This document shows, piece after piece, positions 2,749 through 33,899 of a stretch of 33,899 bases of DNA; within the stretch, counting starts at the first letter, position 1, and each line of letters begins with the position of its first letter. The stretch is from a virus. The notes under the pieces were generated by a model, which was given only the letters and a program-made list of their open reading frames with translations, searched no databases and had not been told where the DNA came from. Made by a program: the position numbers and the translations under genes. The stretch covers positions 1-33,899 of the IMG/VR virus record IMGVR_UViG_3300030098_003618. One strand, 5' to 3'.

Positions 2749-3515
2749 TGGATCTTAAGATGTGCAGGCAGGTAGACAATGCCTCTCTTGGTCGATGGTA
2801 CGATGTTGATGGGATTTATGTCCCATCAGTATCTACTGTTGCTAAGTACGGATGTCCAGTCAACAGCTATCTATGGGATCATATGCTTAAACAAGCTATA
2901 CGATCTGGAGCTTTAGACTCTTTCAAGAGAGAAAAGTCAGAGGCTCTTAGGGTAGGAACTGCTGTTCACGACAATGTAGAGAGGTTAATAGAAGGAAGAT
3001 CCATAGACATAGAGAACGACCCAGAAGTGCAAAGAGGGTTGATCTGCTTTATGAAATTTATGGATGCCTACAAGCCTAAGATTCAAAACTATGAGGAGAT
3101 ATTATTTTGTACTGATATGTACCAAGGTGCATTAAAATATCCCTTTGCTGGCAGGTACGATGCTACTATGATAATAGACTCAGAGCTATGGTTAATTGAT
3201 TGGAAGACATCGTTAACCCTAGATGACAAGAGGTTTCCTATTCAGCTATCAATGTACAAAGCTCTATACGATGCAACACACGATAGACCTATTGATAGAA
3301 TAGGAGTTGTACATTTAAAGAAGAGGTACCAAGGGGCAGAGCCAAGCTCTAGGACTAAGTACCTTAAAGAGTACCAGTTTGATATGACTGCTGTTAAGTG
3401 TGCTCTTTATATGTTCAACTATTTCTACGATCATAGTGACAGCAAGGGTAAGCCTAAGCTCAAACCTAACCTTCAATCTAAATTCAAATTAGGAGATATG
3501 TATGAAAATATTTAA
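2748..3515 (+). CDS. RecB/Cas4-like PD-(D/E)XK exonuclease
   Basis: 255 residues from GTG, whose first base is the last base of the upstream stop (TAGTG). The motifs are in RecB-family order: GTAVHD with His74, GRYD with Asp138 (GRYDATMIIDSELWLIDWKT), then IDWKT with Asp151 and Lys153, and QLSMY with Gln166 and Tyr170. This H-D-(D/E)xK-QxxxY set is the metal site and DNA-binding signature of Cas4/RecB-type exonucleases. I see no Fe-S cysteine cluster of the Cas4 kind. It should resect DNA ends to feed the annealing protein encoded just upstream. An alternative ATG at 2760 is possible. The end overlaps a small membrane protein gene at 3502. Confidence 0.8.
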   Translation: MDLKMCRQVDNASLGRWYDVDGIYVPSVSTVAKYGCPVNSYLWDHMLKQAIRSGALDSFKREKSEALRVGTAVHDNVERLIEGRSIDIENDPEVQRGLICFMKFMDAYKPKIQNYEEILFCTDMYQGALKYPFAGRYDATMIIDSELWLIDWKTSLTLDDKRFPIQLSMYKALYDATHDRPIDRIGVVHLKKRYQGAEPSSRTKYLKEYQFDMTAVKCALYMFNYFYDHSDSKGKPKLKPNLQSKFKLGDMYENI

Positions 3516-7038: not shown

Positions 7039-7234
7039 GTATATAACACACAGAATGATTTTAGATTACTACAGAGACTTTTTAAATAGATACGAGTCAG
7101 TAGGTGTGGGAAATAGAACTGAGTACAATACAGTGGTCACTCAACGAATGATTGACCTAACAAGGGAGAGACTGCATGAGCTACAAACTGGCAGATCTAT
7201 CCGTAAATTAAAGCTAAGGAGTGGATTGAAATGA
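7016..7234 (+). CDS. Small basic hypothetical protein
   Basis: 72 residues from ATG 7016, which overlaps the SEC-C gene by 23 bases and has AAGGAG upstream. Sequence is polar and basic: MTITKRDKYITHRMILDYYR, then YNTVVTQRMIDLTRERLHEL, ending RKLKLRSGLK. It is probably helical and may bind nucleic acid. I do not recognise it. The next gene starts with an ATGA overlap. Confidence 0.5.
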   Translation: MTITKRDKYITHRMILDYYRDFLNRYESVGVGNRTEYNTVVTQRMIDLTRERLHELQTGRSIRKLKLRSGLK

Positions 7235-7518
7235 AAATCGAAAACTATAAACCGATCAATAAAGGCACACTTAAGGCAGTGTTTACACTGGTAACAAACG
7301 AAGGACTGAAGATCAGAGGCATGAAGGTTATTGATGGAATGAACGGTCTCTTTGTAGGATCACCCAGTGAAAAGAGAGAGGTTAATGGAGAGGCTAAGTA
7401 CTTTGATACTGTGTTTATTCCAAACGGTAAGGATGGAGATCCCAATGTGCAAGATAAGTTGCAGGATCTAGTCAATCAAAACAGTGACCCGGTAGGAGAT
7501 GATGACCTACCTTATTGA
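7231..7518 (+). CDS. SpoVG-like protein with SSB-like acidic tail
   Basis: 95 residues, ATGA overlap with the gene before. Residues 13-46 (TLKAVFTLVTNEGLKIRGMK, then VIDGMNGLFVGSPS) match the SpoVG core, where the typical block is 'RVIDGxNGLFVAMPS'. SpoVG proteins are small dimers that bind DNA and RNA. The protein ends with DPVGDDDLPY, close to the DDDIPF tip by which bacterial SSB recruits repair proteins. I infer a single-strand or nucleic-acid binding protein that substitutes for SSB in this phage. The following reading frame begins inside the tail-coding bases at 7499. Confidence 0.7.
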   Translation: MKIENYKPINKGTLKAVFTLVTNEGLKIRGMKVIDGMNGLFVGSPSEKREVNGEAKYFDTVFIPNGKDGDPNVQDKLQDLVNQNSDPVGDDDLPY

Positions 7519-8081: not shown

Positions 8082-8358
8082 AGACGATGTTAACCAATAT
8101 AAACTAGATGAGGCTGAAAGACAGAAGAAAAAAGATTGCAGTCCTACTGATAACCAAAATGTAACTGGTTGGGAGAAGTACAGGTCACAGGGAAAGGGAG
8201 ACAAGAACAGAATAAGAGGGTGGTACAATGAAGAAATCTCGGAAAGGCTCAAACAAATCTTCGGCAAAAAGGGCAAGCAGAAGGAAGAAGTTAGCAAGCA
8301 AGAGGAAGACACTGGTAAAGAAACTGGACACGATAGTAAGCCAGATAGTAAGGACTAG
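8071..8358 (+). CDS. Small highly charged hypothetical protein
   Basis: 95 residues from ATG 8071. The N-terminal two-thirds has a distinct pattern (DEAERQKKKDCSPTDNQNVT, then GWEKYRSQGKGDKNRIRGWY) that looks like a conserved folded core. The C-terminal third is low-complexity Lys/Glu/Asp. The gene overlaps the NinG-like gene by 131 bases in another frame. The low-complexity end may be imposed by the NinG frame. I believe the gene is real, since the core is not shadow-like, but its function is unknown. Confidence 0.5.
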   Translation: MKHKDDVNQYKLDEAERQKKKDCSPTDNQNVTGWEKYRSQGKGDKNRIRGWYNEEISERLKQIFGKKGKQKEEVSKQEEDTGKETGHDSKPDSKD

Positions 8359-8665
8359 AGATGAATACTGTGTACAGTGTGGAACCCCAGAGAATTTAAC
8401 TTGTGGACATATATTCAGTAGAAGGTCATACTCTACAAGGTGGGATCTAAACAACTGCTTTGCACAGTGTTGGTCACACAACTTTCAACACAGCTACGAT
8501 AACTACGACTACTACAAGTGGTACCAAGATAAGTTTGGTGAGGATAGGTTTACTGAGCTTAGGAAACAGTTTAAGGCACCCAGAAGGTTTACCATTATAG
8601 ACCTTGAAGAGCTGTATGAAAGGATGGTAGAGTTTAAAGATTTACTTGAGAGGTCAAAGCAATGA
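8228..8665 (+). CDS. NinG/Rap-like recombination endonuclease
   Basis: 145 residues from ATG 8228, preceded by GAGGGTGG. A very basic N-terminus (residues 2-32, Lys/Arg/Ser-rich) leads to DEYCVQCGTPENLTCGHIFS, then RWDLNNCFAQCWSHN, and a C-terminal helix, RRFTIIDLEELYERM. This follows the lambda NinG layout: CxxCG, (A/C)GH, RxxxxN, C-x-x-C/H. The last metal ligand pair is C-W-S-H here rather than CxxC. NinG (Rap) proteins cut branched recombination intermediates and fit with the annealing protein and exonuclease of this phage. A later start is possible because the basic leader overlaps another gene. Confidence 0.75.
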   Translation: MKKSRKGSNKSSAKRASRRKKLASKRKTLVKKLDTIVSQIVRTRDEYCVQCGTPENLTCGHIFSRRSYSTRWDLNNCFAQCWSHNFQHSYDNYDYYKWYQDKFGEDRFTELRKQFKAPRRFTIIDLEELYERMVEFKDLLERSKQ

Positions 8666-24302: not shown

Positions 24303-25028
24303 ATGTGGTGGATGGCAGTACCAACAGTAATCCAAGGTCTTGGATCTATATACGGTAAGAACGAACAAATTAAAGCTCTTGAAAAACAAAAACAAATGGG
24401 CAAGTACGAGAAGGAATACTTCAAGAGGATGGAGAGTGAGGCTAGAAAAGGTGACCCTATGTATCAGCAGAAGTTGAACCAAGCCTTATCACCTATCAGA
24501 CAGCAGGGTCAGTTTATGCAACAAAGAGCAACAGGAACTGCTATACAACAGGGTCTTGAAAACTCTATCATTGCAGATGAGCTTAGGAAGAGAGCATCCA
24601 GAACTACTATGGGTCAAATTTCACAGACTTCCGAAAGAATGGCTATACAAAATGCTGAGTACAGAAGACAGGCTCAAGGCAGGTTGGATCAGGCTAGACT
24701 ATCAAGAGAAGAAAAACTTAGAGGCATAGCACAGCAACAGGCTGGTTTAAAATCAGGTATGATAGGTGATGTTATAGGTATGGGAGCTAGTTTAGCAGGT
24801 CAATATGCAGGCATGAAGCAACCTCAGTTAACCCAAGCACAGATAGGAGGTCAAGACATACAAGGTGTATATTGGGATCCATCAACTAAATCATATACAG
24901 ATTTCGGAGAGGACTTTAATCAAGAACCACAGTTTGGAAGTTTCGGTGAAGCATTTGATTATTATAAAAGTCAAGGAGCTCAAGAGTTTTCATGGAAAGG
25001 GAAACGATACAATACAAAAACAAAATAA
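24303..25028 (+). CDS. Ejection/internal virion-type protein with SFxxAF...WxGKxY tail
   Basis: 241 residues; ATG 24303 with AAAGGAGAG at 24288-24294. It has a long helical, Gln/Arg-rich body (QGLGSIYGKNEQIKALEKQK, GTAIQQGLENSIIADELRKR, SERMAIQNAEYRRQAQGRLD), then a Gly/Ala-rich possible membrane-active segment, SGMIGDVIGMGASLAGQYAG. The C-terminus is a motif module: SFGEAF at 213 and FSWKGKRY at 229, shared with the protein at 10478. Position between adaptor and giant protein fits a T7 gp14 / P22 gp7-like ejection protein. No enzymatic domain is visible. Confidence 0.65.
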   Translation: MWWMAVPTVIQGLGSIYGKNEQIKALEKQKQMGKYEKEYFKRMESEARKGDPMYQQKLNQALSPIRQQGQFMQQRATGTAIQQGLENSIIADELRKRASRTTMGQISQTSERMAIQNAEYRRQAQGRLDQARLSREEKLRGIAQQQAGLKSGMIGDVIGMGASLAGQYAGMKQPQLTQAQIGGQDIQGVYWDPSTKSYTDFGEDFNQEPQFGSFGEAFDYYKSQGAQEFSWKGKRYNTKTK

Positions 25029-25035
25029 GGGCAAT

Positions 25036-25542
25036 ATGGGAATAAAGAGGTATAAATCACTTGGTGAGCTTATGCTTGCTAGAGAGAAAGAAGGTATAAG
25101 GAAGGCTAAGAAGAAGTCTAGGTCAATGTATAAAGGCTTGAAGGACTGGGAGAAGTCTCAGATAAGAATAAACAAGCAGGACTACCTACCCCACAACAAG
25201 AAAGAATACACAGAATATTTTGGTCCATACAAGGACAGCTTTATTGCACAGAGAGATTCATCCTTGGTATCTCAGCAAAAGCTAAAAGTTAGGAAGAGCA
25301 TGGACAAGCTAAAGAAAGAACTAGATGAAAATAGATCACTACTTAAGGACTGGAAAGCTGATTTAAAGAAACTGAAAGATAAAGGCTTTCTTGGTTTTGG
25401 AAAGGCAAAACCTGAAGATATAGAACATAATAAAAAAGTTATTAAAGAGTATGAAGATAAGATTAAATTAGGAGAAAAAGACTCTACAAATATTCAATTT
25501 AAGTTGGACAAGCTAACCAATAAAAAGCCTAAATTATACTAA
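25036..25542 (+). CDS. Lys-rich coiled-coil virion-region protein
   Basis: 168 residues from ATG 25036; an earlier open stretch overlaps the previous gene in another frame and is rejected. SD is weak (AAGGGC). The protein is basic and helical: MLAREKEGIRKAKKKSRSMY, DKLKKELDENRSLLKDWKAD, KKVIKEYEDKIKLGEKDSTN. The stop overlaps the start of the giant gene by one base (TAATG), suggesting coupled translation. It may be a small ejection protein or a chaperone of the giant protein. Family unknown. Confidence 0.6.
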   Translation: MGIKRYKSLGELMLAREKEGIRKAKKKSRSMYKGLKDWEKSQIRINKQDYLPHNKKEYTEYFGPYKDSFIAQRDSSLVSQQKLKVRKSMDKLKKELDENRSLLKDWKADLKKLKDKGFLGFGKAKPEDIEHNKKVIKEYEDKIKLGEKDSTNIQFKLDKLTNKKPKLY

Positions 25543-28500
25543 TGAGTGAACAGCTTTATAAGAACCTTCAGAAAGAGTATGATCTTCCTGATTACTGGGA
25601 CTGGCTTTCTGATATGCAGGATGATGATAAAAGAAAAAAAGCCTTTGACAGCTTAGTTAACCCCAACCTACAAGAAGAAGATTATAACAATGCATACCAA
25701 GAATGGACAAACGAATTGGTTCCACAATTTGATCCAGAGTCTGAAGGATACGACTACAGCACTGCCTTAAAGTCAGGTGGAAGACCCGGAGAGGATCAGC
25801 ACTGGGGAAGTTTAGATCCTAACACTGGAATGGTTCTAAAAGGAAGAAACCACGAGACTTGGGATAAAACAGTTTTAGAGGAAGAACTTAGAGGCAATGT
25901 TATAGTCAAGGGTGAGGATGGTCGTTTCTATAGCAGAAAAAATCCTAACACAATAAATAAGGACAGACCGGCAGGTGTTCCTGCTCCTGTATCTGATCCT
26001 GTTTATGGCAGATGGTTGAACCACGAGCCTGTCCCCATTGAATCACAAAAAGATCCTAGAACCATGAACTTTTCAAAAACTATTGAAGTTGATGGTAGAA
26101 CTCTTGGTTTAGTTAAAAAAGACAAGACCATAGACAGAATGGAAGACGGAACCCTTGCTGATGATACAGCACCTGTAGAGGATGAAAGTATATTTAAAGA
26201 GGCAGTAGAGTCTCTTACTTTTAATTACGATCAATCTTGGATAGAAGACCCTTCTATTACACAAGAACAAGCAGAGGCAATAAAAGACGACCAGATGGAA
26301 AGTTTAAAGAAAGCTAAACAGTTTGAAGAACAAGGATATGAAATATACGATCTTACAAACGAGTCTTATATACCTATGCAGTGGAACAGATATGAGAGAA
26401 ATATACTTAACCACGACCAACTTAAACATTTATCAAATTCACAACTTAAAGATGAAGGATGGTGGAAAGAGATAAAGAAAAATTACAACATAAAAAACAA
26501 CGAAGCTCTCCAGTCTCAAGAAAATTATAATATAATACTAAGTGATGATGTTGAAGCTAGAGAGAAGATGGTTCAGGATTATATCAACAACGGAAAACAA
26601 ATTTCGTTTACAGATGATACAGATGGTATTTTTGAAAAACTTTTACATTCAACGGTAAATATTATTCCAGATATGAAAAATGCAGTAATCAATGGTCTTA
26701 ACTGGGGTGTTCAAGGTTGGATGGCAGGCACAGTAGCTGGTGCAATAACAGGTCCCGGAACTTTAGCTACTGGAGGTACAGGAGCTGTTGTTGGGTTTGG
26801 ATCAGGGTCGACAGAGTATTGGAGAAGGCAAGGAACCCAAGAGCTTTATCTTAGGCTTAGGGCAGAGGGTGTAGATCACGATATATCCCTTTCAACATCT
26901 TTACTTGGAGCAATGCCATATGCTCTTACAGAGCTTGTTAGTACACAACTGCAAAGTAAATATGTTAAGGCTATGATACTCGATTCAATAACAAAATCTG
27001 GCTTTGTTAATTTAGTTAAAAAAAGAGGATTAGAAGGAACTAAAGATTGGTTAAAAGAGATAGGTCAAGAAAACTCTCAAGAGTTAATTATGGACTTAGC
27101 ACAAGATATTGGAGTGACCACAAGCAACCATCTTAGAAGTACAGATATAGAATATAAAAGTTTAGCAGATAGAATTGATACCCATATAGAAGTATCAAAA
27201 GAAACAGCAAAAGCATTAATTCTTCCATTTGTGGCTGGGTCAGGGATGAGGGTGGCTACAGAGTACAAGATGGATCCTGCCGAAAGAGCTTACAGAAGAA
27301 AACAAAAAAGAGACAAGTTCTTAGAGACAACAGAGATAGGAAAGCAGATTCAAGTAGCTAGAGATTCAGGTAAGTACGATGAGTTTACACTTGACTTCCT
27401 AGCAGATATGGCTATAAGGAACCCAGACATAATAGAGGAGTCTGGTGCTATAGATCTAACAGAGAAGGCTGTTAACCTAACACAAGACTACTTTAGAGCA
27501 GAGCTAGAAAAAAATGATGAGGTATATACAGATGAAGAGTGGAACGAGGTAGGAAGAGATAAGTATGTAGAGTTCCTTGCAGGAGAGGGAATGACAGAGC
27601 AAGATGCAGAAAATATATTTGCTACTGGTTCTACAGAGAACTTCCAAGATTTAATAGAGGGAAGTACAAAGGTTCTTATGAAACTCAACCAAGGTGCAGA
27701 TGTTTCTACCGTTGTTGAGGAAATGTACGGATGGTACCACAGAGCCTTGAACGACCAAGAGTCATTTTTGTTCCAAGAGTATTATAACTCTATACACAGC
27801 AACCCAGAGCTAAAAGAAAGACTTTATCTTAGGCTTATGGAGAATGGCTTTGTAGATGAAAACTATGACTACGAGAACAACTCACTAAGCTCACAGGAGT
27901 TCTTTGAAAAAGATGGTATGAACTACTTTGCAAACCAAAACCTATACGAAGACTCTGCACTAAGAAAGGTATACAGAAAGGTTATGGAGTACTTTCAAAA
28001 CCTACTAGGTATATCAGATATATCACCAGATGTAGTCAAGATGTACGAAGAGGCAGGACAGTTTAAAGTAAAGAAGGTAACCCAAGCTCAAGATATAGAA
28101 ATTAGTAAAGAAAAAGGAATAGGAACTCCTAAGTCATACCAACTAAGCTATATGGGTAGTCATAGACCTTCACGAGAAGGACCACCTGCACATAATCTAC
28201 TTGAAGGTAATAAAATTCCAGATGATGTATATGATACACCTAGATACTATATAGGCTCTATAAATACGGGAGAACAAAAGAAAGTTTATCAAGAAACCGT
28301 AGAGGCAATAAACTATTTAAAATCTATAAAAGGAAACCCAGATGCAGAGGTAACAGTTTATAGGGCAGGACCAAAAAAAGAATTAAATGCAGGAGACTGG
28401 ATAACCCTTTCTAAGACCTATGCAAAAGACCACTCAATGTACTTTAAAACCCCTGTACATAAATTTAAAGTAAAAGCTAAAGATGTACTATGGGATATGA

Positions 28501-31500
28501 ACTCACTGGAGGAGTGGGGATACTATCCTAAAGGTCAAGAAGTAAAACAAAACGATATTTTAGACAGATCCTTCCAACTAAAAAAACCCTCAACCCCCAC
28601 AAGCTCAGGGACTTCGATGCAGAAGTCTGTACTACAGGTAGCCAAGAAGCTAAAGAACAACTCAATCATTAACCCACCTACAATTAAAACACCTAAAGAA
28701 GAAATTAAGAAAATGAAGAACAGGGGGAATTTAAAAGGCTTTAGAGAATCTTTAAAGTACCTAGACGAGGGTAAGGATGTAGATGGTGTAAGACAGTGGT
28801 ACGATGGAGTTGACTATGCTTTAGAACAGATGGCTATTGAAGTCCCTGAAGTCCTTCAGTCAGAAGAAAATAAAACATTTGCACTTCTTATGCTAGCCAT
28901 AACTTCTCAAGGTACAAAGGTTCAACCTAACTACGACATGGCTGTAGATATAGTAAGGGAGTACTTTAGAACAGGAAAGATGCCTATAAGAGAGAACGAG
29001 ATTATAGACTCAGTGACTAAAAAACCTAAAACTATTTATGGTCTTGTAGGAAGAGGGTGGGACGGAAGAGATAGGATGGCTGGTGGAAAGTTGTACAAGG
29101 CTGTTACTGGCAATGCACAGATGATTGAAAGGTTGATTAACGATCTAGGTCTTGAGGGTGCTATGCAGTACCTACTTGAAACAAGAACAGGAAGAGCTCA
29201 CCTTAAAAGTGGTTATAAACTTAACGAAAAGGGCAACCCCTCACTGGCTGGGTTTATGACTGCAAATGAAACACACTACGGAGCAGAACAGCTTGGTCCA
29301 AAGATAGGTGCATTCTTTTTAAACATGAACGGAGTATCGGACATTCCTACCTTAGACCTATGGTGGTCTCGTACTTGGAACAGGTGGATGGGAACCCCAA
29401 CAATTATAGATAAAAAATCAGGAAAGGAAAAGGTAGTAGAAACACCTAGAAACAAATCAGAAAGAAATACAATGATCGAGGTATTAGATAATATCTCTGA
29501 ACAACTAACAAAAGAAACAGGAATGGAGTGGTCGAACACTCAGGTACAGGCTCTGCTGTGGTACTACGAAAAAGATTTATATCAAAACGAAGGTGCACAG
29601 GTAGATCCGGCTATATCATTCAGGGAGGCATCAGATGTCAGACAAGAAAAATTTAACGAATTTACCACATCCAACGATCTTGGGGATCTTAGAGGATATG
29701 AAGAACAAAGGGATGCTGAGGAAAGAGTTCTTCAGAATAGGACAAAAAGCATTGACCAAGTCTCTAAACTTCGACAAAAGTCCTTCCAACTTAGAAAACC
29801 AAGAGTAGAGTCGGTTCCACTGTGGGAGTCAAAGATAAAGAAAAGCATTGATGGTTTTGATGTTGATTCCGATGGGAACCTACGAACAGCAAAGGGACAG
29901 CCTCTAAAGTGGAAAGATCTTCAATCAATACTAGGTGTAAGCAAGACAGAGTTTAAGTGGTCTTTTGTAGATGATATGCTTGAAAGTAAAAACCCCAACG
30001 ACAAGGTTAACAAAAACGAACTGGTAAATACACTTGACCTTGAGAGAATAGCACTAGAAGAAAGTGTTCGTGGTGGAAAGCTAGAGGGGGTTGAAGAGTA
30101 TAAACCTCAAAAAATTAATTATGGAGAAGACTATGCAAGGGAGTGGACTCCTGAGCTAAAAGAAACTATAGGTAAACTTACTTCAGACACACTGATAGAT
30201 GAAATTGATCTTTTTTATAGTCCAGAAGGGAAAGATACTAAGGAGCTTAACAGACTAGAAGCACTAAACCAACCATTCCCTGAAGAGGCTCCAAACTGGC
30301 AGTTTGTAATTGCCAGTGTTATACATACAAACGATCCAAATGCTCCAATAATAATAGAGTCCTATATTCAAAACACAAAGACTGGTGATATAAAGAGAGC
30401 CAGTGAACCCTATAGAGTCTGGTCAGACGAAGCTATAACCAGCTCACAAGGTACAGAGATAGAGGCTGAAATAAAGGCAAAAACAATATATCAAGAACAG
30501 CAAGCCAGAGAGCTTGGTCTTATTATAAATGCAAAAACAAAGCACGATAGCTTAGTAAGGAAAATAAAAGAAGGTGGTACAGAGCCTGCCTACCACGAGG
30601 ACTATACAGAGCACATAATAACCCTTCCCTCACTAACACCTAGAGGTGAGGTAGAGTACATTGTTAAGCCTTACGAAGATCAGTACGGACTTTTTGCTGT
30701 TCTAGGTGGAAAAGAGATGATGATTAGTTTTGGAACAAAGAAAGAAATGGAACAGTTATTAAGAGCTCCAGACACTACTGATTATAAAACAAAAGAAGAT
30801 ATGCTAGGACAAGATTACTATGAAAGTCCTCCACATCATTTTGAAGATAAAAATATAGCTGTGTTTGTTAGACACACTACCAGATACACTCCAGATGGAA
30901 AGAAAGTTTTATATATAGATGAACTACAAAGTGACTGGGCAACAGATCTAAAAACCCCATCAGAAAAAAGAGACTACGAAAAGCTCAATAAACTTTTTTA
31001 TAAAAGAAGAAAACAATGGACTAACCTCTTTGAAGAAACAAAATTATATGCAGAGTGGGGACTAAAAAACTTAAAAGAATTTGCTGAAAACCTTCTGGTG
31101 CCGGTTGGGAATGATTTTGTAAGAAGAAAAGTGGACAATTTTTTAGCAGGGGTAGAGGTAGCTGAAGAAAGTGGAATTGAAAATGTAAACCATGATTTTG
31201 TTAAAGACGACATGACAGACTTACTTGCTTTAATAAAAACAAACGAAGACATCTTTATAGACCCTCAACTTTTAGCTGACTTTGAATACAAAACAAAACA
31301 ACTAGAAAGTCAAAAAAATATAACAAATAAAGCAGATAGTGACCACAAGAACTACCAAGCAGAGACAGCCATAAAAACTCCACCTATGCCTTATGAGGGT
31401 TATGACTACATAGGTCTTGCACTAAAGAGAATGATAAGAAAGGCTGTAGATCAAGACTACGACTATGTTGCTGTAACTGATGGAAAAACATCGGCAGACC

Positions 31501-33899
31501 TGTACAGTGCAAGACAAGTATTTGAGCATGTAGTTGTCAATAAATATATAGATAACAGATTGGAATATTACAATGCAGAAGTACTAGATAAAAGTGCACG
31601 AAAAATAGAAATACAAGGAATAGGACACAGGAACAAGCTAGACTTCTCTAGGTTAACTGCTGGTGAAGTTATTAGGGCATTTGGAAAAGACTTAGGTGAA
31701 AAAATTATAAAAGGAACAGAAGAAGTTCTTCCTGCTGAGTACTATACAAAAAAACGAGACGAATACTTTTCCAGCTATAACCTTCATGCCTCTGAAAACG
31801 AGGGACTGAAGATCAAGAACCTTGTCAACACTATGTTCTCAGGTAACACATCTCTTGTTACAGATGAAAGTTTTGGGGTCGATAGAACTGGAAATAGATT
31901 TTATGAAAAATTTCAACAAACAAGCAAGAGTCATATTATATCAGGAAAAGATTTAGAGGTTGGTGGATATATGCACAAGGCTTTGTATGACAATGCAATC
32001 CCCAACAAGATGAACAAGCTAGGCAAAAAGTTTACAGGAACAAAGGTAGAGGATATAGAGATTGCATCATTTAAAGATCCAGATGCTATTGATTATGATG
32101 AGGGAGGTTCAGAGTTGCCTTCAACATTTTCATCTAAGGCAATGAAGATAACCAAAACCTTAAGAGAAGAGGGTGGCAAGCCTATGCCTTCGTTCCAGCT
32201 TAAAAAAGGAAAGCTACCTAATAAGCTGTTAACAGGAAAGGGCAAGGTGCTTAAAACAAAAGATCCAAGTTTTTATACAGAAGCATTAATCCCTATATCA
32301 ACAAGACTTAAAAGAATACATCCTAAGCTAAGGGTTATACTTAGGAAGTTTGAGTTTGATCTCGGTGTTAAGGTGAATGCAGACAGAAAGACTATAGTAC
32401 CATTCTTAAATAAGTTTGAAAAAATGAACGAGGAAGATAAAAAGATTTTAACTCTTGCCTTGTACAACGGATACGAAGAAAGTATACAGGAGATGTTAGA
32501 TAAATATGATATGAACTCTGAGTATGTATCTGTTCAAAAACTTCTTGAAAAATTCTACAATGATGCACTGTCGGTTGGTTACGATATAAACCAAATAGAA
32601 AACTACTTCCCTAGACTTGTTACTGACTACGAAGGAATGATGAACTATCTTGGTGGTGTTGATCCTGATTCTAAAACAATTATTGAAGAGGCTCAAAAGA
32701 AAAAAGAAAAGTCTCTTGGTAGGAAACTTACAGATGAAGAAAAAATTTCCATTGCAAACTCTGTTATAGCTGGTCATGGATTTAAATCTAAGTCAACCCC
32801 AAGAAATATTAAAGGAAGAGAAATAGAGAATGTATCTGAAGATCTACTGCAATTTTATTCAAGTCCTGTTGAATCCTTGATAGGGTATGTTGATAGTATG
32901 AACGAAGGTATTGCATCTAAAAAGTTTTTTGGCAAGGGTGAGGACTTGGGTGATTCAATAGGAAAGTTTGTAGCAGGAATGGTTGAAGAAGGCTTAATTA
33001 ACAAAACCCAAGAGAGAGAGGTTGTTACTATTCTAAATGCAAGGTTTAATAAAACTCCTATGAAAGATTTTCTTAGAACAGTAAGAGATGCAACCTATAT
33101 AATGACGATGGGACAATTTACAAGTGCAGTTACACAGATCGGTGATGTGGCTTGGTCGATTGTAAATGCTCCACTACAGACCCCAAAGGCACTAGGGAAG
33201 GCATTTGCCAGTGCTCTGCCTAAGATTAACCTTAAACGAATTACCAGAGAGGATGTTGGGGTAGAGCATGTTGCAGAAGAAATGCAAGATCCTAAAGGTT
33301 TCGGTAAGTGGGTCAACAGAGTGTTTAAAGCAATAGGTCTTGATAAGGTCGATCAAGCTGGAAAAGAAACACTGATGAATGCTACCATTGAAAACTTTCA
33401 GAAGAAAGCCAAGACAGATAAGTTAACCAAAAGACAAATGGAAACTCTTACCGAGATATTTGAAGATGAAGCACCACAGGTTATACAGGATCTAAAAGAC
33501 GGAAAGATTACAGAGAATGTTAAGTTCCTAGCATTCTGGACACTGATGGAGTTTCAACCTGCAAGCAAGAGTGAGGTACCACAGAAGTACCTTGACAGTC
33601 CAAACGGAAGGATGTTATATCAATTAAAGACATTTACAATCAAGCAGTTGGATGTATATAGAAACCAATTTTGGGATGATCTTAAGGCAGGGAACAAAGC
33701 AAGGGCATGGGGTAGGTTGGCTACAATAGCCACTGCCTTTGTTGTTTGCAACGGAACTGCCGATGCTATAAAGGACTGGATAAGAGGAAAGCCTATTCAC
33801 CTTGATGATATATTTTATGAAAACTTATTTAGACTTCTAGGTATGTCTAGGTATCAGATATGGGTAGCACAAACATATGGGGTGGAGCAGGCAGTGTCT
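25542..33899 (+). CDS. Giant polyvalent/injected virion protein (5' 2,786 codons)
   Basis: One open frame from ATG 25542 to the window edge, continuing at 1-591 (total about 2,905 residues). Residues 1-380 are polar; about 387-450 hold a Gly-rich hydrophobic segment (GWMAGTVAGAITGPGTLATG) that could enter a membrane. Four S(F/Y)QL motifs (Ser865, Ser1010, Ser1414, Ser2217) divide the rest. Module 868-1008 is ADP-ribosyltransferase-like (VTVYRAG with Arg941, ITLS with Ser957, EEWGY with Glu990/991). Module 1010-1414 has a GPKIGAFFLNM block near 1254. Module 1414-2217 has IDELQSDW at 1794-1799 and IGLALKRMIRKAV near 1960. The last module has NYFPRLV at 2354. These are known themes of large polyvalent proteins that travel with phage DNA. 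No lytic domain is obvious. Confidence 0.85.
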   Translation, partial: MSEQLYKNLQKEYDLPDYWDWLSDMQDDDKRKKAFDSLVNPNLQEEDYNNAYQEWTNELVPQFDPESEGYDYSTALKSGGRPGEDQHWGSLDPNTGMVLKGRNHETWDKTVLEEELRGNVIVKGEDGRFYSRKNPNTINKDRPAGVPAPVSDPVYGRWLNHEPVPIESQKDPRTMNFSKTIEVDGRTLGLVKKDKTIDRMEDGTLADDTAPVEDESIFKEAVESLTFNYDQSWIEDPSITQEQAEAIKDDQMESLKKAKQFEEQGYEIYDLTNESYIPMQWNRYERNILNHDQLKHLSNSQLKDEGWWKEIKKNYNIKNNEALQSQENYNIILSDDVEAREKMVQDYINNGKQISFTDDTDGIFEKLLHSTVNIIPDMKNAVINGLNWGVQGWMAGTVAGAITGPGTLATGGTGAVVGFGSGSTEYWRRQGTQELYLRLRAEGVDHDISLSTSLLGAMPYALTELVSTQLQSKYVKAMILDSITKSGFVNLVKKRGLEGTKDWLKEIGQENSQELIMDLAQDIGVTTSNHLRSTDIEYKSLADRIDTHIEVSKETAKALILPFVAGSGMRVATEYKMDPAERAYRRKQKRDKFLETTEIGKQIQVARDSGKYDEFTLDFLADMAIRNPDIIEESGAIDLTEKAVNLTQDYFRAELEKNDEVYTDEEWNEVGRDKYVEFLAGEGMTEQDAENIFATGSTENFQDLIEGSTKVLMKLNQGADVSTVVEEMYGWYHRALNDQESFLFQEYYNSIHSNPELKERLYLRLMENGFVDENYDYENNSLSSQEFFEKDGMNYFANQNLYEDSALRKVYRKVMEYFQNLLGISDISPDVVKMYEEAGQFKVKKVTQAQDIEISKEKGIGTPKSYQLSYMGSHRPSREGPPAHNLLEGNKIPDDVYDTPRYYIGSINTGEQKKVYQETVEAINYLKSIKGNPDAEVTVYRAGPKKELNAGDWITLSKTYAKDHSMYFKTPVHKFKVKAKDVLWDMNSLEEWGYYPKGQEVKQNDILDRSFQLKKPSTPTSSGTSMQKSVLQVAKKLKNNSIINPPTIKTPKEEIKKMKNRGNLKGFRESLKYLDEGKDVDGVRQWYDGVDYALEQMAIEVPEVLQSEENKTFALLMLAITSQGTKVQPNYDMAVDIVREYFRTGKMPIRENEIIDSVTKKPKTIYGLVGRGWDGRDRMAGGKLYKAVTGNAQMIERLINDLGLEGAMQYLLETRTGRAHLKSGYKLNEKGNPSLAGFMTANETHYGAEQLGPKIGAFFLNMNGVSDIPTLDLWWSRTWNRWMGTPTIIDKKSGKEKVVETPRNKSERNTMIEVLDNISEQLTKETGMEWSNTQVQALLWYYEKDLYQNEGAQVDPAISFREASDVRQEKFNEFTTSNDLGDLRGYEEQRDAEERVLQNRTKSIDQVSKLRQKSFQLRKPRVESVPLWESKIKKSIDGFDVDSDGNLRTAKGQPLKWKDLQSILGVSKTEFKWSFVDDMLESKNPNDKVNKNELVNTLDLERIALEESVRGGKLEGVEEYKPQKINYGEDYAREWTPELKETIGKLTSDTLIDEIDLFYSPEGKDTKELNRLEALNQPFPEEAPNWQFVIASVIHTNDPNAPIIIESYIQNTKTGDIKRASEPYRVWSDEAITSSQGTEIEAEIKAKTIYQEQQARELGLIINAKTKHDSLVRKIKEGGTEPAYHEDYTEHIITLPSLTPRGEVEYIVKPYEDQYGLFAVLGGKEMMISFGTKKEMEQLLRAPDTTDYKTKEDMLGQDYYESPPHHFEDKNIAVFVRHTTRYTPDGKKVLYIDELQSDWATDLKTPSEKRDYEKLNKLFYKRRKQWTNLFEETKLYAEWGLKNLKEFAENLLVPVGNDFVRRKVDNFLAGVEVAEESGIENVNHDFVKDDMTDLLALIKTNEDIFIDPQLLADFEYKTKQLESQKNITNKADSDHKNYQAETAIKTPPMPYEGYDYIGLALKRMIRKAVDQDYDYVAVTDGKTSADLYSARQVFEHVVVNKYIDNRLEYYNAEVLDKSARKIEIQGIGHRNKLDFSRLTAGEVIRAFGKDLGEKIIKGTEEVLPAEYYTKKRDEYFSSYNLHASENEGLKIKNLVNTMFSGNTSLVTDESFGVDRTGNRFYEKFQQTSKSHIISGKDLEVGGYMHKALYDNAIPNKMNKLGKKFTGTKVEDIEIASFKDPDAIDYDEGGSELPSTFSSKAMKITKTLREEGGKPMPSFQLKKGKLPNKLLTGKGKVLKTKDPSFYTEALIPISTRLKRIHPKLRVILRKFEFDLGVKVNADRKTIVPFLNKFEKMNEEDKKILTLALYNGYEESIQEMLDKYDMNSEYVSVQKLLEKFYNDALSVGYDINQIENYFPRLVTDYEGMMNYLGGVDPDSKTIIEEAQKKKEKSLGRKLTDEEKISIANSVIAGHGFKSKSTPRNIKGREIENVSEDLLQFYSSPVESLIGYVDSMNEGIASKKFFGKGEDLGDSIGKFVAGMVEEGLINKTQEREVVTILNARFNKTPMKDFLRTVRDATYIMTMGQFTSAVTQIGDVAWSIVNAPLQTPKALGKAFASALPKINLKRITREDVGVEHVAEEMQDPKGFGKWVNRVFKAIGLDKVDQAGKETLMNATIENFQKKAKTDKLTKRQMETLTEIFEDEAPQVIQDLKDGKITENVKFLAFWTLMEFQPASKSEVPQKYLDSPNGRMLYQLKTFTIKQLDVYRNQFWDDLKAGNKARAWGRLATIATAFVVCNGTADAIKDWIRGKPIHLDDIFYENLFRLLGMSRYQIWVAQTYGVEQAVS
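33669..33899. repeat. Right copy of 231-base terminal redundancy
   Basis: Matches 1-231 with 9 substitutions and no gaps, and keeps the reading frame of the giant protein across the joint. The copy reads WGRLATIATAF and DWIRGKPIHLDD where the left copy reads FGRLATISTAF and DWLRGKPIHFDD. It supports closing the contig into a circle of about 33,668 bp. Confidence 0.95.

Follow-up and report, generated by a model that had tools for sequence, protein, structure and literature searches.

A repeated, protein-specific motif between the modules of a giant phage protein: a candidate boundary tag

Polyvalent proteins of phages and conjugative elements were described by Iyer et al. 2017 (PMC5512222). 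Metallopeptidases are frequent in these proteins, and one of them, P1 DdrB, has been reported to be processed (PMC5512222). For the DarB-like giant gp69 of phage JC1 (4,515 amino acids [aa]), 51 peptides were found in JC1 virions (PMC9144972). Here we analyse a giant polyvalent-type protein encoded on the plus strand at 25542..33899 of the window, by which we mean the whole 33,899-nucleotide stretch of DNA that makes up positions 1 to 33,899 of IMG/VR virus record IMGVR_UViG_3300030098_003618. The short motif S[FY]QL recurs between the modules of this protein. Other phage giants carry motifs of their own at the corresponding places, and we ask what such a boundary tag might be for.

The S[FY]QL motif and the modules it separates

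The motif occurs four times in the giant, at precisely the residues given by an earlier sequence-only reading of this DNA: 865 (KSYQLSYMG; 28134..28145), 1010 (RSFQLKKP; 28569..28580), 1414 (KSFQLRKP; 29781..29792) and 2217 (PSFQLKKG; 32190..32201), all on the plus strand. In composition shuffles of the giant, S[FY]QL appeared 0.04 times on average, and none of 2,000 shuffles reached four copies; SFQL is also the sole tetrapeptide with three copies in the protein. The tags are thus internal and repeated, with the first at residue 865 and none in the N-terminal 850 residues. The same reading had noted K/R-K/R after the last three copies. This suffix is real in the window, but we rejected it as part of the motif because relatives lack it (SYQLNKP, SYQLTPA, SYQLGYQ, SYQIVSP).

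Each tag lies at a module boundary, as had been proposed. An untagged N-terminal region (residues 1–580; 25542..27281), which in alignment is the window's fastest-diverging part relative to the nearest relative, L002, is followed by a metallopeptidase-like domain (residues 604–838; 27351..28055). Beyond the first tag comes an ART-like module (residues 869–1003; 28146..28550) that matches PHROG 2579 (E = 1.7e-24), has standalone homologues and is given a confident fold by AlphaFold2. A GPKIGAFF-type module (residues ~1060–1400; 28719..29741), ~30% identical to parts of other giants and to standalone proteins, lies between the second and third tags. An ELQSDW-type module (residues ~1424–2216; 29811..32189), with homologues in the EIQSDW modules that many polyvalent proteins carry, lies between the third and fourth. 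The C-terminal domain (32202..33899; NYFPR, YQLKTFTIKQ) is common to L002, L200 and L278. All these features are on the plus strand, and they place unlike predicted activities in one chain.

Two kinds of evidence support the boundary position. In a mycobacteriophage, the ART-like module has a standalone homologue (L196, 130 aa), which begins immediately behind the site of SYQL865 and stops ~12 residues short of SFQL1010. In AlphaFold2 models, the copies at 865, 1010 and 1414 fall in unstructured linkers with a predicted local distance difference test score (pLDDT) below 50. The copy at 2217 directly follows the last helix of the ELQSDW module, at the edge of a linker whose pLDDT is below 50 from the next residues onward. 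These models were built from shallow alignments and have a mean pLDDT of 61–63, so we take them as support rather than proof. A Foldseek search with model 1 found nothing meaningful (best E 0.88); the ART label therefore rests on sequence. Pfam gave no match in the window giant itself, and PF18760 (ART-PolyVal) and PF18857 (LPD38) were above cut-off in the clade members L200 and L202. The giant is best filed with the polyvalent proteins, with a predicted backbone (N-terminal region, metallopeptidase-like domain and C-terminal domain) into which interchangeable effector modules would be set.

Relatives keep the motif between modules, also where the order of the modules is shuffled. L002 (2,868 aa; 67% identity in the best segment) retains three S[FY]QL copies and has SFQA at the third position. 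In L006, L007 and L008 (~2,400 aa), SYQI or SYDV precedes the GPKIG-type module, S[FY]QI precedes an ART-PolyVal-type module, and SYQL or SYKL precedes another C-terminal domain. The order in L200 is GPKIG module, SYQL, SYQL, ART, SYQL, ART-PolyVal, SYQI and C-terminal domain; its Pfam ART-PolyVal match (1709–1826) has a tag on either side, at 1691 and 1838, and the ART-like module it has in common with L002 (72% identity) is likewise bounded by tags. The boundaries of L202 read SYQL, SFDL and SFQL. Together, eight clade members hold 23 copies of S[FY][QS][LI], compared with 1.5 in shuffles. Looser forms also exist away from boundaries (SFKV 1089 in L006, SFDA 707 in L008).

Phage searches with the ELQSDW and C-terminal segments of the window clade gave no matches. 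Scans by pattern brought up the same three phages and no others, and 274 genomes belonging to a single class, searched with PF18760, yielded two matches in all. We also observed that residues 1505–2117 of the giant (30046–31892) are ~15–50% identical to L002, compared with 85–100% elsewhere, with both flanking tags staying in place, as if the ELQSDW module had been replaced or were evolving fast.

Tags agree within a protein and differ between proteins

For a wider setting we assembled 186 giants from phages, each 1,200 aa or longer and most of them located via three of their modules. A fixed motif, [FY][SQ]L, was not enriched over all the giants, because each protein has its own dialect; a signal emerged only within single proteins or at boundaries that had been anchored. 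An unbiased search for repeats in giants other than the window's found protein-specific motifs: [KR][FY]SLR (five copies in L176), RFAV (five in L187), [FY]SAR (six in L093), FMPAE (five in L048; QFMPAE 4–5 copies), YSGR (four in L045; QYSGR 3–4 copies) and L[FY]MPA (four in L292). The boundary dialects of giants include KYSLR, RFAVA, QFMPAE, FSAR, SFSL and TMQA. With a reduced alphabet, eight 5-mers had at least four copies, compared with ~1.2 in local shuffles; 4-mers showed no excess over such shuffles. An ALFN repeat in L249 was set aside as a dialect since, by eye, it looks like a chance repeat inside helices. L136, L137 and L160 may use a dialect that lacks the aromatic residue, with IRKS[EA]DR or IRKTEDR at several module edges.

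The pattern [FY][SQ][LIVRK] occurred within 22 residues upstream of ART-PolyVal in 18 of 73 proteins, with 3.1 expected from random windows and a maximum of 9 in 1,000 draws. This pattern was picked after examples had been seen, and we give more weight to a test of dialect agreement across three anchor classes (upstream of ART-PolyVal, at the PDI-type tail and at the ELQSDW-module tail; 41 proteins, 91 pairs). At the first residue after the aromatic, agreement within proteins was 0.495, compared with 0.225 ± 0.039 when permuted, and at the second it was 0.341, compared with 0.104 ± 0.031; neither value was reached in 2,000 permutations. The anchors were found by pattern and some will be wrong, errors that should dilute the signal rather than create it. 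Non-homologous modules of one protein thus share that protein's own version of the tag. Because the anchor classes are different modules, shared module ancestry cannot explain the agreement.

These data bear on another explanation, that the motif does nothing of its own and is simply the last strand, or the end, that each domain family conserves. Such tails do exist: the ELQSDW module has a family-wide tail, ITxxMRExxxxGxPxF, and ART-PolyVal modules end in PDIR[FY], both upstream of the variable residues. However, the residues after the aromatic track the protein and not the module family, at least five modules of a single clade end in one short motif although they are not homologous, and AlphaFold2 predicts no strand at the tags and is of low confidence there. 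The comparison of L278 with L282, described below, largely refutes this explanation, since near-identical modules there bear different tags, and we regard it as very improbable.

The strongest evidence comes from the pair L278 and L282, between which the GPKIG-type module is 89% identical in protein and ~91% identical in DNA over 1,118 nucleotides, and the ELQSDW module is 71% identical. In contrast, the two proteins have unrelated C-terminal domains, and identity in their metallopeptidase-like parts is 25%. All boundaries in L278 are of S(F/Y)S(L/I) type (SYSI, SFSI, SFSL, NFSL, SFSL), and all those in L282 are T(M/F)QA (TMQA, TMQA, TMQA, TFQA). The exchanged stretch (L278 1002–1387, L282 914–1300) has its edges exactly at boundary tags, where DNA identity drops from ~90% in the cassette to background. 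From the alignment, this is a recent cassette exchange between L278 and L282 in which the tag matches the backbone on both sides. Because similarity stops at the tags, the tag goes with the backbone and not with the cargo.

That homology stops just at the tags could also point to an explanation at the DNA level, in which the tag is microhomology left by, or used for, module recombination and its uniformity comes from copying. Codons at same-residue tag positions agree more often than codon usage predicts (0.58 vs 0.39), which suits this explanation; some tag copies may be recent DNA duplications. The four window copies are not a recent DNA repeat, since they differ synonymously (serine codons TCA, TCC, TCC and TCG), and the copies in L176 differ likewise (TCT, TCA, TCG, TCC and TCC). 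Similarity between the flanks of different copies barely exceeds that between random positions (0.089 vs 0.064). Moreover, tag DNA is not shared between L278 and L282 and cannot be the crossover homology there. We consider a DNA-level origin unlikely.

Taken together, within a protein the tag is the same throughout and stands in the linkers that separate non-homologous modules; between proteins it differs, and it does not travel with a swapped module. The sequence-only reading had proposed protease cutting points or a docking signal that each module requires for loading, and both of its checks come out in favour of the motif: relatives retain it between modules, and its place is in predicted linkers or at the edge of one. 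That it is a functional, recurrent boundary motif is strongly supported.

Candidate readers of the tag

Our favoured explanation is an interchangeable-module polyvalent protein whose tag is read by a backbone-matched factor, putatively a protease; we put its probability at roughly 60%. Each flexible linker after the metallopeptidase-like domain would bear one short tag, here S[FY]QL, which a factor co-varying with the backbone of the phage would recognise as an address. We infer that such a matched reader exists. With less certainty, it may be a protease, and the effectors would then come apart by cutting of the chain, either during assembly or after injection. As for the role of the tag taken alone, cleavage falls a little short of an even chance, a non-cutting docking or assembly function is possible at clearly lower odds, and some other role is slightly less probable again. 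Cleavage is favoured because the tags are arranged like the cutting sites of a polyprotein and because polyvalent proteins often carry metallopeptidases.

Several findings weigh against this explanation. No protease family was recognised in the window proteins by family and profile searches. Self-cutting by the metallopeptidase-like domain is unlikely because HExxH is missing in the window clade. The dialects are loose, with weaker forms at a few boundaries (SYDV, SYKL, SFDL, SFQA), and the ELQSDW tail motif is also found near the C-terminus of some proteins, where nothing lies downstream to be separated. The codon agreement noted above, with the duplications it may reflect, belongs with these.

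The sequence-only reading had seen no phage protease. Our searches likewise recognised none, but that reading had overlooked the metallopeptidase-like domain at ~604–838, which is apparently catalytically degenerate: the place of HExxH is taken by EEMYG, EEFLG or EEFYG in the window clade. Aligned with active metallopeptidases by hhalign, the domain gave an E-value of 0.0023 and a probability of 12%, and a bridging sequence in L223 (GADVSTAVHEVAH), in the same register, links the two. Kinship to active peptidases is moderately supported by these alignments, and the domain of the window giant is probably inactive.

The missing HExxH and the lack of a recognised protease in the window make docking a serious rival to cleavage. 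The linkers would then bind a backbone-encoded partner, and the chain, folded in the head, would be threaded out in order and uncut. The degenerate metallopeptidase domain might be this partner, as a pseudo-protease that binds peptides; other candidates are the coiled-coil protein encoded upstream and a core protein. The clade has kept its metallopeptidase-like domain despite the loss of HExxH, and with 25% identity between L278 and L282, compared with 71–89% for the cargo, this domain could co-vary with the dialect. The alternating polar and hydrophobic residues of S-F-Q-L would suit a peptide bound as a beta-strand, and N4 virion RNA polymerase has been reported to be packaged uncut (PMC5512222). 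Yet the one signal on which capsid targeting of P1 DarB is known to depend is N-terminal and no longer than 30 residues (PMC9024508), and standalone GPKIG-type proteins and small ART-PolyVal proteins mostly do without a tag. Standalone GPKIG-type module proteins lack S[FY]QL, and the upstream motif was present in 0 of 8 small ART-PolyVal proteins, compared with 26 of 65 giants (p = 0.04). The suggestion that every module needs the motif as a docking signal is weakened accordingly. Docking in general we hold to be less likely than not.

As a side observation, some standalone GPKIG-type proteins, L023, L027–L029, L031 and L032 among them, carry a single EAE[FY]QLSQP that precedes the module by ~11 residues; this could be the only boundary tag of a protein with two modules.

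A protease supplied by the host could instead cut the linkers, in which case the dialect would track the specificity of the host enzyme. The failure to recognise a phage protease in the window fits this proposal, and the hosts of metagenomic phages may differ. On the other hand, the many unlike dialects (RFAVA, QFMPAE, YSGR, TMQA, SFQL) would need many specific enzymes, and the dibasic suffix that would suit an OmpT-type protease is not conserved. We therefore hold a host protease to be improbable.

A more speculative reading is that the linker tags form a private, phage-specific boundary code read by a backbone-encoded partner, such that cargo would be exchangeable between phages only once re-tagged, and that the reader in the window clade would be the degenerate metallopeptidase domain, turned from cutting tags to binding them. 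We judge this rather unlikely.

Gene setting and comparison with known systems

The reading frame of the giant (25542–33899, plus strand) is open through 2,786 residues in the window, according to the open reading frame (ORF) list and its translation, and the gene runs on as frame 1–591 on the same strand, which encodes the C-terminal end of the giant and matches the end of the relative P0002. The contig ends (1–231 and 33669–33899) form an imperfect direct overlap of 231 nucleotides with 96% identity and 9 mismatches, an observation that points to a circular map whose assembly drew on strains differing slightly. Because this overlap joins both ends of the giant gene, the protein has ~2,905 residues in all, the length that had been claimed for it, and the genome is nearly complete.

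Upstream of the giant, and encoded alongside it, are the virion morphogenesis genes: large terminase, SU10/P22-like portal, major head protein, adaptor and an internal virion protein (1,078 aa). Two further genes lie just upstream, both on the plus strand and both without cysteine. One (24303..25028) has a weak match to the internal virion protein T7 gp14 (Pfam E 0.008), and the other (24865..25542), coiled-coil-like in the domain search, is directly upstream of the giant. The counterpart of the latter differs strongly between L278 and L282, which makes it a candidate for the matched factor.

The giant itself has one cysteine in 2,786 residues. Over the 186 giants the median cysteine content is 0.00%, and 173 are at or below 0.1%. 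Most other phage proteins contain 0.4–3.5%, unlike the giants and the two genes just upstream. This near-absence may reflect passage through the tail or periplasm. By analogy with JC1 gp69 and P1 DarB, both of them present in virions (PMC9144972, PMC9024508), the giant is probably packaged and injected by the phage. Elsewhere in the window are a SpoVG-like gene (7231–7518) and a NinG-like gene (8228–8665); no endolysin or holin was recognised among the window ORFs searched.

We found no earlier description of a repeated boundary tag in the open papers searched, so its novelty is provisional. A dialect tag would give residue-level predictions of where cutting or docking takes place, marks out modules of unassigned function without the need for structures and, through its co-variation, offers a way to find the reader. 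It could account for effector cassettes that remain functional after passing between unrelated phages, and it bears on how the domains of polyvalent proteins are released, ordered or matched to the virion.

Like polyvalent proteins (PMC5512222), the window giant is a very large multi-domain chain encoded in a virion-gene region, with domains homologous to their modules. It differs in having neither a Pfam match nor HExxH, and the terms “linker” and “short motif” do not occur in that paper. The arrangement also resembles viral polyproteins with sites for a cognate protease, in that repeated, protein-specific sites lie in flexible linkers and change in concert between relatives; here, however, no protease was identified, and the chain is probable virion cargo, not a whole proteome. 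Capsid targeting sequences, as in the T4 internal proteins and P1 DarB (PMC9024508), are likewise short peptides on injected phage proteins, but they are single and N-terminal (30 residues suffice in P1 DarB), whereas the window tag is internal and repeated. The DarB-like giants of Bcep22-like phages offer a further likeness: the JC1 giant was found in the virion, and its relative BcepIL02 gp70 (4,667 aa) has two [KR]FSV sites, at 3307 and 3750. Unlike the window giant, BcepIL02 gp70 carries two candidate tags only, and its metallopeptidase-like HEAFH is intact. The JC1 and BcepIL02 giants thereby make the tag idea testable in cultured phage.
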